Part shown: piece by piece, positions 7,174 to 27,477 of the stretch | Numbering within the stretch: position 1 is the first letter of the stretch | How the letters are laid out: each line of letters starts with the position of its first letter | NCBI GenBank assembly: GCA_005799065.1 | Contig: SYHW01000003.1 | Location: 1-51,977 of the forward strand | Origin: Bacteroidota bacterium | GTDB lineage: Bacteria > Bacteroidota > Bacteroidia > UBA7662 | DNA: 51,977 nucleotides | Direction of reading: 5' to 3' | The notes under the pieces: generated by a model | Seen by the model: the letters and a program-made list of their open reading frames with translations, nothing else | The model's database searches: none | Told to the model about the DNA's origin: nothing | Position numbers and translations under genes: made by a program

Positions 7174-8955
7174 ATGAGTGTAACCCGAATTTTCGACATT
7201 CTCGACCATCAAAAATCAACCCACGCCCTTCAAACTGCTCTGGCTTGTAAAAAAAACGGTCAGTGGGTACATTACAGCACCAACGATTTTATTGAACAGG
7301 CTTCGCGGGTGAGTCGCGGACTACTCGCAGCCGGACTAAATCCGGGGGATAAAATTGCGAATGTTTCTAATAATCGACCAGAGTGGAATATCCTGGATAT
7401 GGGTATGCTGCAGGCGGGCATGGTGCATGTGCCCCTCTACCCCACCATCACGGACGACGATTATCGATACATTTTAAAGCACGCTGAAGTGCGTATGGTA
7501 TTTGTATCGAATAGGGAGCTGTATGAACGAATCGCTCAGATTGCTGGAGAAATTCCCGAAATTTTGGGTGTATTTACCTATGACGAAGTGGATGGAGCGC
7601 CGCATTGGAGTCAAATCCCGGAACAGGCCGAAAAAGTCTCCGTGTCGCAGGTCGAGGAAATTAAGGCCCGGATAAAACCAGAAGATTTGTTCACACTCAT
7701 CTATACCTCAGGTACAACCGGCTTCCCTAAGGGAGTGATGCTCTCCCACAACAATGTGGTGAGCAACCTGCTGGCTTCGTCGCCCAGGGTGCCCTGTGAG
7801 GCAGGCGACAAATGCCTGAGTTTCCTTCCTTTGTGCCACATTTTCGAGCGGATGCTCACCTATATGATGATGTACCGGTCGATTTCCATTTATTATGCTG
7901 AGAGCATGGAAACCATCGGGGAGAACCTTAAAGAGATCAAACCAGACTTTTTCTCTTCGGTACCGCGCCTTTTGGAAAAGGTATTCGACAAAATTGTGGC
8001 CAAGGGTCATGAACAAACAGGCATCAAAAAGAAGTTGTTTTTCTGGGCCCTAAACCTTGGTCTGCGCTACGAGTTAAACGGCGCGAATGGGCCTTGGTAT
8101 GCGTTGCAGCTTAAAATCGCGAATAGGATCATTTTTAGTAAATGGCGTGAAGCCTTGGGCGGACGTGTTAAAGCGATTGTGAGCGGAGCCGCAGCTTTGC
8201 AACCCCGCCTCGCACGGGTGTTTTGGTCGGCCCAAATTCCCGTATTGGAGGGATATGGACTCACCGAAACATCACCCGTCATTGCGGTTAATTATCTGGC
8301 CACGATGCAAGTCGAGTTTGGCTCTGTAGGCCCCGTTTTAGAGTCTATTGAAGTCAAGATCGCCGAAGACGGCGAGATTTGTTGCCGGGGCAGCAACATC
8401 ATGATGGGCTATTACAAGAGTCCGGAATTGACTGCTGAGGTCATCGACGCCGATGGCTGGTTCCACACCGTTGATATTGTTCGCTTCATTTAAAAATACA
8501 ACCAAAAAATAACCGACCGTAAGAAGGAAATTTTTAAAACATCCGGTGGCAAGTACATTGCTCCACAGGTCATGGAAAATCGATTCAAAGAATCGGTCTA
8601 CATCGAACAGCTGATGGTGGCGGGTGAAAGCCGCAACTTCCCATCAGCCCTTATCACTCCTGCCTGGGATGCGCTTGCGCATTGGTGCAAGCAAGAGGGA
8701 ATTGTTGTTGGCTCAAACGCTGATCTCGTTCGTCACCCTAAGGTAGTACAGCTGTACCAATCAGAGGTCGATCGCTACAATACGGGTTTTGGTCAGTGGG
8801 AACAGGTTAAACGTTTCGCTTTGCTGCCCATTTCTTGGGGCATCGACTCCGGTGAGCTAACGGCCACCATGAAACTCAAACGGAAGGTGATTATGGAGAA
8901 GTATAAGGCAGATTATGAGGCGCTATATGCTGATGTATCATCCGGTCAAATCTAG
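7174..8955 (+). pseudogene. Long-chain fatty-acid-CoA ligase, interrupted by an in-frame TAA
   Basis: From ATG 7174 (MSVTRIFDIL) the reading frame encodes an AMP-forming acyl-CoA synthetase. The P-loop TSGTTGFPKG, the adenine motif EGYGLTETSP and the C-terminal hinge motif DRKKEIFKTSGGK are all present. At 8491-8493 the codon is TAA, yet the same frame continues with KITDRKKE and runs to the TAG at 8953-8955, giving a normal total length of about 593 codons. Just before the stop, the invariant TGD is read as TVD (GTT at 8470-8472) and the next expected Gly is Val. The part before the stop lacks the C-terminal lid, so it should not be active if the sequence is correct. Recent mutation or sequence error are both possible. 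Confidence 0.85.
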
Positions 8956-9062
8956 AAAGAGCGAGTTACATCAAGAAAGAGCGAGTTAAAACTCGAAGGG
9001 CCTAGTTAAATCTTGAAGGGTCCGGTTAAATCTTGAAGGGTCTAGTATAATCTTAAAAGAGC
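8941..9062. repeat. Degenerate 20-bp tandem repeat spanning the ligase stop codon
   Basis: The period is exactly 20 bases: units begin at 8951, 8971, 8991, 9011 and 9031, with half-units on either side. The consensus is close to TCTTGAAGGGTCTAGTTAAA. The first full unit contains the TAG of the ligase gene, so the array appears to have grown from the 3' end of the gene. It fills the space before tRNA-Arg. Confidence 0.85.
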
Positions 9063-9508: not shown

Positions 9509-9536
9509 TTATTCTAATTGCTTCGATTTTGCCCTT

Positions 9537-9665
9537 TCCGGAATCAATGACTGGTCCGGAATCAATGATCTGTCCGGAATCAATGACCTATTCGGAATCA
9601 ATGACCTATTCGGATATTAATGATTCGTCTGGAATCAGTGTGACCTATTCGGAAATAATGACTTG
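9537..9665. repeat. Degenerate 18-bp tandem repeat after the tRNA cluster
   Basis: About seven units close to TCCGGAATCAATGACCTA begin at 9537, 9555, 9573, 9591, 9609, 9628 and 9648. The fifth and sixth are 19 and 20 bases long. The rest of 9509-9700 shows nothing else. The array lies between the tRNA terminator and the 3' end of a minus-strand FISUMP gene. Confidence 0.85.
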
Positions 9666-9700
9666 TCAGGAAACTGCATCTTGGTCTGCTCTGCACATGC

Positions 9701-26074: not shown

Positions 26075-26599
26075 TCAAAAAGGATAATAGGGAGAAATCA
26101 TGAGATAGACCACAACCCCAGTGGTGGTAACATACAACCAGATTGGCATTGACCAGCGGGTGATGCGCTTATGAGCTTCGATTTGTCCGGTCAAACCCCG
26201 ATAAAACGACAACAAAACCATCGGCAATACCACAGCTGCCAGAATGATATGACTGATGAGAATGATCAAATAATAAGGCCGGAGAGGATTGTCGGCAGGA
26301 AAGCGGGTTTCAACACCAAAAGCATGGAAAATGACATAAGAAATCAGAAACAGGCTCGACAAGCAAAATGCTGCGATATTCAGGCGCTTGTGCCATTCAA
26401 TTCGTCGCGCACGAATCATCCACCAACTCACCGACAACAGGATGGTACACGTTCCATTAATCCAAGCATTGAAAGTCGGTAGCTTTTGCACCAATTCAGG
26501 TACCTCTTCATTTTTGGGCAAATTAAACAACACGACAACGGCTACCAAAACCAGTGCGGAAACCGTGTAGATTAACCTTAGTGCTTGTTTTTCGTTCAT
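26075..26599 (-). CDS. DUF420 membrane protein of the cox cluster
   Basis: This 174-residue protein has five membrane segments with conserved His residues (RIEWHKRLN, YVIFHAFG, ILISHIILA, IEAHKRITRW), as in DUF420, which is related to CtaG-type and other oxidase assembly membrane proteins. The first 23 bases of the gene are unit 1 of a ten-copy tandem repeat extending upstream, so every upstream ATG copy is out of frame or stops after eight codons; only the ATG at 26599 opens the full frame. It lies in the cox run between the SCO-like and CPMC genes. Confidence 0.88.
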   Translation of the reverse strand: MNEKQALRLIYTVSALVLVAVVVLFNLPKNEEVPELVQKLPTFNAWINGTCTILLSVSWWMIRARRIEWHKRLNIAAFCLSSLFLISYVIFHAFGVETRFPADNPLRPYYLIILISHIILAAVVLPMVLLSFYRGLTGQIEAHKRITRWSMPIWLYVTTTGVVVYLMISPYYPF

Positions 26600-26806
26600 C
26601 TTAGTGCTTGTTTTTCGTTCATCTTAGTACTTGTTTTTCGTTCATCTTAGTGCTTGTTTTTCGTTCATCTTAGTGCTTGTTTTTCGTTCATCTTAGTGCT
26701 CGTTCTTCGTTCATCTTAGTGCTTGTTTTTCGTTCAACTTAATGCTCGTTCTTCGTTCAACTTAATGCTCGTTCTTCGTTCAACTTAATGCTCTTTCTTC
26801 GTTTAT
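26577..26806 (-). repeat. Ten phased 23-bp repeats copying the DUF420 start codon region, forming a chain of eight-codon mini frames
   Basis: The span 26577-26806 is exactly 10 x 23 bases. On the minus strand the unit is ATGAACGAAAAACAAGCACT plus AAG. Unit 1 is the gene start itself. Units 1-6 begin ATG, units 7-9 TTG and unit 10 ATA. Because 23 is one less than 24, each unit read from its start gives MNEKQALR and then TGA, and that TGA overlaps the next unit's start as ATGA or TTGA. Unit 6 differs by two A-to-G changes (MNEERALR) and unit 3 by GTA for GCA. Units near the gene are nearly identical; distal units are diverged. Confidence 0.95.
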
Positions 26807-26829
26807 GGGGTTAGATGATAAACAAAAAA

Positions 26830-27477
26830 TCAACGCTTTCGTTTGGGTGCAGTATTGGCATATTCCGCAATAAGGGTCCGCACATCTTCCATTAAGCGAT
26901 CCGTTTCTTTCCGGAGAATGGTACGGTAGAAGCCACGGGCTCTGTGTTGTTTATCAAACAAAATAGTGATTTCTTCTTGTTGAGATTGAGGGAACATGCT
27001 TTGCCAATCGGATCTGTAAATGGCCACTTGCCGGTAGAGCGAATCGGATAAGCGAGATTGGCCCAAAACCAACTCCAAACTCCGCAACGCTGAAGGTGGA
27101 TCATGTTGCGGAACATTCCGTTCATTTGGATGCACCTGCATCAACCAAACTAACGGATTTTCACTGAACACATCCCCCACTCTTCTTAATTGATCGTATC
27201 TCAGGCGCGTTGTATTGGAATCGCCCTCCGGGAAAAAGCTAACCACCAGGACCCTGTTGGGCTGTCGATCCGCCACACGAATAAGGGACGCTATACTGTG
27301 AAACAAGGTATCTTCTCGTCCACCGGCCACGGCCACAGGCATAACATAACGCGGCCCGAATACTGGCAGTTTGTGGTATTTGTTTTCTGCCGAATTAACG
27401 TAGGCTAAATAGATCACCACTGGCAGACCCAGCATCAAAAAGAGCAGTAGCAGCTGTCGCGCCCTGCGGTTCATCAT
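26830..27477 (-). CDS. SCO1/SenC-like thioredoxin-fold protein without cysteines
   Basis: This 215-residue protein has an N-terminal membrane anchor (about 8-27), then KYHKLPVFGPRY, the start seen in Bacteroidota SCO proteins, a NRVLVVSFFPEGDSN strand where SCO has the CxxxC copper site, and ITILFDKQHRARGFYRT near the end. There is no cysteine anywhere in the protein, so the classic copper-binding thiols are gone. SCO proteins deliver copper to the CuA site of CoxB. Its start overlaps the subunit IV stop as ATGA. It may be structural, or the chaperone job may have moved to another protein. Confidence 0.75.
   Translation of the reverse strand: MMNRRARQLLLLFLMLGLPVVIYLAYVNSAENKYHKLPVFGPRYVMPVAVAGGREDTLFHSIASLIRVADRQPNRVLVVSFFPEGDSNTTRLRYDQLRRVGDVFSENPLVWLMQVHPNERNVPQHDPPSALRSLELVLGQSRLSDSLYRQVAIYRSDWQSMFPQSQQEEITILFDKQHRARGFYRTILRKETDRLMEDVRTLIAEYANTAPKRKR

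Follow-up and report, generated by a model that had tools for sequence, protein, structure and literature searches.

A tandem array spanning the start of a DUF420 gene in a Bacteroidota cox cluster is probably a largely neutral minisatellite

Introduction

Bacterial minisatellites, or VNTR loci, consist of short head-to-tail units that are partially homogenised and mostly noncoding, and their copy number and unit length differ among relatives. Repeats of another kind, the mycobacterial interspersed repetitive units (MIRUs), lie at start codons and carry short ORFs that are linked to the following gene through a stop-start overlap of -4 nt, an arrangement thought, according to a review (PMC12548453), to leave expression of the downstream gene little changed. 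Stop-start overlaps are also characteristic of translational coupling, as in ATGA/TGATG gene pairs or short upstream ORFs, and leaders in which a single gene is preceded by multiple translation initiation sites have been engineered (PMC9723656).

Here we analyze a repeat array at the start of a DUF420 gene in the window, namely the whole stretch of 51,977 nt at positions 1 to 51,977 of contig SYHW01000003.1 of a Bacteroidota bacterium. The array resembles minisatellites in its short head-to-tail units, their partial homogenisation and the variation of copy number and unit length among relatives, but it spans a gene start, its last unit being coding and evolving with the gene. It shares with MIRUs a position at a start codon and a -4 nt stop-start overlap; MIRUs, however, are a dispersed, apparently mobile family present at many loci, whereas the DUF420 unit copies the start of its own gene at a single locus. 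Serial stop-start overlaps upstream of a gene recall translational coupling, from which the array differs in that several of its upstream starts have decayed. The engineered leaders, finally, are synthetic and contain several ribosomal binding sites, whereas the DUF420 array has no Shine-Dalgarno motif. Literature searches gave no earlier account of an array of this type from Bacteroidota.

Materials and Methods

The array-bearing genome (G000) is 85% complete, its draft assembly comprising 69 contigs with a total of 1.86 Mb. It was compared with three other species of its genus (G001, which is the nearest, G002 and G003) and, for some features, with further relatives (G004 to G006). Tandem arrays were sampled in about 371 kb of G000 (~20% of the genome) and about 334 kb of G001, and a more sensitive scan for repeats at starts and stops took in 296 G000 genes. 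Gene calls were simple and ORF-based, and the comparisons are to be read as those of few species with draft genomes.

Results and Discussion

On the minus strand of G000, ten contiguous 23-bp units run from 26806 to 26577 into the DUF420 gene (table 1). The array is real: TRF reports it at 26577-26803 with a period of 23, 9.9 copies, 94% matches and a score of 342, which exceeds that of all other TRF arrays in the window and is the top score among arrays in the sampled stretches of G000. The gene belongs to a cox cluster that includes COX4_pro and two COX3 genes, while a Pfam search with the product of the gene immediately upstream gave no match.

Table 1. Features at the start of the DUF420 gene (window coordinates)
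Feature	Coordinates	Strand	Description
DUF420 gene	26075..26599	-	174 aa, PF04238, E 1.4e-43, cox cluster
U1	26577..26599	-	3'-most unit, equal to DUF420 gene bases 1-23; its ATG, alone among the units, opens the frame of the gene
U2-U6	26600..26714	-	five ATG units of eight codons each, TGA overlapping the next start (ATGA)
U7-U9	26715..26783	-	three units with TTG replacing ATG
U10	26784..26806	-	5' end of the array; start codon decayed to ATA; lies where the ancestral start was, by the original leader
Ancestral leader	26807..26829	-	between the stop of the upstream gene and the array; aligns with the G001 leader
Upstream cox-cluster gene	26830..27477	-	215 aa; SCO-like by position only

The first-pass annotation had described ten contiguous 23-base units inside a cox operon, ending in the start of the DUF420 gene, with starts diverging from ATG to TTG and ATA in the distal units; TRF, the unit-by-unit reading and the neighbouring genes bear this description out. 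It had also assigned to each unit the peptide MNEKQALR and a TGA overlapping the next start, an overlap said to survive in all ten units. Every unit is indeed an eight-codon frame with TGA across the start of the next, except U1, which continues into the gene, but the peptide differs in U6 and U8-U10 (NEERALR or NEERALS) and in U3 (MNEKQVLR). All junctions (ATGA or TTGA) keep their TGA; they are nine rather than ten, U10 receiving none and having TAA at its bases 2-4.

The length of these head-to-tail units lies within the range of minisatellites and VNTR loci (about 10-100 bp), and the nine NTGA junctions reproduce, by sequence, the internal ORF of MIRUs with its -4 nt overlap on the downstream start. 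The unit is, however, confined to its own locus, with no match elsewhere in the G000 genome when <=3 mismatches are allowed, and this rules out a dispersed or mobile repeat. A structured RNA leader was likewise ruled out, since the leader has no stable fold (z +1.30, weaker than shuffles) and matches no Rfam family; an unstructured leader also fits direct initiation at U1.

G001 contains an orthologous array of five units (23/22/23/22/23 bp), which follows a leader that can be aligned with that of G000. Its upstream starts have decayed too (GTG, GTA), and its mini frames end within about 20 nt of a downstream start, one 22-bp unit ending TAA-G-ATG. G002 and G003 have a single DUF420 start about 25-30 nt past the upstream gene, and no array was found upstream of DUF420 in these species or in those further family members for which that region was inspected. 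Among the genomes compared, the array is therefore limited to G000 and G001, between which unit length has changed, and copy number differs as at VNTR loci (10 in G000, 5 in G001, a single start in G002 and G003).

We infer that the array is probably a largely neutral minisatellite grown from the start of the DUF420 gene. The first-pass annotation had mentioned this origin as an alternative to its regulatory reading, and it is now the better supported of the two in view of the G001 array, the repeat background of the genome and the decay of the starts. The seed would have been a tandem duplication of DUF420 bases 1-23, most simply in an ancestor shared by G000 and G001, followed by expansion, contraction and partial homogenisation through replication slippage or recombination. 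A start-spanning duplication of any length would leave its 3'-most copy as an intact gene start and turn the previous copy into its leader, the neighbouring copy here providing a typical A-rich one without a Shine-Dalgarno motif. The array would be tolerated, with or without reinitiation, since its last copy preserves the gene with its start and A-rich leader. Ribosomes would most likely begin directly at U1 or at units close to it; proximal units may allow some reinitiation, but this would not be what maintains the array. Facts that run counter to neutrality are the overlap of stop and next start at 9/9 junctions, the survival of a reinitiation path in both G000 and G001, and the rank of the array as the highest-scoring in the G000 sample.

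The ATGA phase would result from two features together, the ATGA start of the gene and a unit whose length is 2 mod 3. This combination is unremarkable because ATGA opens 43% of the called ATG genes here, and with random unit lengths about one in seven start arrays would show both features. Selection for keeping the TGA overlaps was rejected as non-significant: 5/23 columns vary among U1-U9, and the probability that the three TGA columns escape by chance is 0.46. The overlaps of stop and start most likely reflect simply how long the copies are, and not a translation switch; unit length alone can produce a striking phase of this kind.

A termination-reinitiation relay would explain the phase differently. 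Ribosomes entering at one of the upstream units would read its eight codons, terminate at the TGA and begin again at the start that overlaps it, repeating this through successive units, and DUF420 would remain coupled to upstream translation despite the growth of the gap from about 25 to about 230 nt. The nine NTGA junctions are spaced as closely coupled genes most commonly are, short upstream ORFs are known to mediate coupling, with MIRUs being thought harmless in this way (PMC12548453), and G001 also retains stop codons near downstream starts. We nevertheless consider the relay unlikely. A selected relay is expected to conserve its upstream starts and unit phase, but the starts have become TTG (three times) and ATA in G000 and GTG or GTA in G001, where 22-bp units depart from the length of 23, and the start-codon columns took about 4/11 of the inferred changes over G000 and G001, above their share (P about 0.045, on a rough parsimony count by eye). 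The strongest start context (90th percentile of called genes, U7-U9 falling between the 16th and 30th) belongs to U10, which lies beside the best leader where the ancestral start was, and yet its start codon is gone; the context of U1 itself is average (57th percentile).

The phased reinitiation device proposed by the first-pass annotation thus fails wherever a test is possible, and of the other start arrays of G000 presented below, that at cdsA lacks the ATGA phase and that at the gyrB-family gene has in-frame units. Among the findings that would refute its reading, that annotation had named close relatives with unit lengths breaking the phase without consequence; the 22-bp units of G001 supply half of this, the consequence being invisible from sequence.

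Start-spanning repeats recur at other genes. The cdsA gene (PF01148) of G000 begins with 25-bp units containing five ATGs without ATGA phase (C16:4346-4487), whereas its G001 ortholog has two 23-bp copies (copy number 5 vs 2) and that of G002 a single start, which overlaps the stop of a DUF2007 gene as ATGA. A gyrB-family gene (PF00204) starts with seven in-frame 21-bp copies encoding MPEVNKS in G000 (C7:12977-13123) and with six in G001, no array being present there in G002, G003 and G006. At gpsA (PF01210), G000 and G001 each have two 21-bp copies, but this gene may in fact begin farther upstream, which would make the repeat internal. An ABC permease gene of G002 has 55-bp units at its start.

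Noncoding tandem arrays number 9.4 and 9.6 per 100 kb in the samples of G000 and G001, respectively, and 2.8, 4.5, 2.3, 3.2 and 0.9 in G002 to G006; noncoding minisatellites are two to ten times denser in the G000 and G001 samples than in the other species sampled. Unit length in G000 is divisible by three in 34/37 repeats inside genes vs 12/35 noncoding ones. For this genome the DUF420 array is nothing unusual in kind, its phase being eye-catching but probably incidental. A bias of arrays toward gene starts could not be claimed: start-spanning and stop-spanning arrays are about equally frequent in the TRF classification, and the sensitive scan gave numbers too few for such a claim (six start-spanning, some of them inside genes or doubtful, and three stop-spanning).

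A broader interpretation, in our opinion improbable, is that start-spanning minisatellites form here a recurrent, self-compatible class of repeats, in which mini frames would hand ribosomes to the gene as proposed for MIRUs; arrays could then grow cheaply at the starts of operon genes, have a modest tuning effect on output and, through homogenisation, change the N-termini of conserved proteins. Whichever way they are read, units of 23, 22, 25 and 21 bp at several gene starts of sister species offer a natural series for testing reinitiation through repeated starts.

The exact copy number might also be an assembly effect, in which case the array would exist with an uncertain length. G000 is a fragmented, incomplete draft and probably a metagenome-assembled genome, several units do not differ from one another and 230 bp is more than short reads would bridge; ordered variants (U3, U6, U7 and U8-U10) speak against simple collapse or invention, and the G001 ortholog was assembled independently, so that we judge this quite improbable. 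An adaptive expression switch acting on DUF420 by copy-number tuning or phase variation, as the first-pass annotation had envisaged from copy number, is very hard to credit despite the ten and five copies of G000 and G001: similar changes affect unrelated housekeeping genes (cdsA, gyrB-family), and on/off variation by frame is contradicted because any copy number of at least one leaves DUF420's own start intact, the 3'-most unit giving an in-frame start whichever units are gained or lost.

The largely neutral minisatellite that we favour appears to have affected the protein as well. Codon 7 of DUF420 is CTA (Leu) in G000 and TCA (Ser) in G001; Leu is also the residue of G002, G003 and the closest members of the family. 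At the corresponding site of the repeats, GCATTAAG is read in U8-U10 of G000 and in one G001 unit; the remaining units and the gene of G000 have GCACTAAG, with GTACTAAG in U3, and the remaining units and the gene of G001 have GCATCAAG. The simplest reading is that a variant spread between the DUF420 gene and its array, and the direction that we infer is from array to gene: homogenisation probably rewrote codon 7 in G001, changing Leu to Ser. If so, homogenisation of repeats can enter a gene and alter a codon that near relatives otherwise conserve.

Elsewhere in the window, a stop-spanning counterpart lies at 8943-9062, where six 20-bp units begin across the stop of a gene ending at 8955, and a noncoding array of about 18-bp units (CCGGAATCAATGA) occupies 9533-9672, just past a tRNA cluster.
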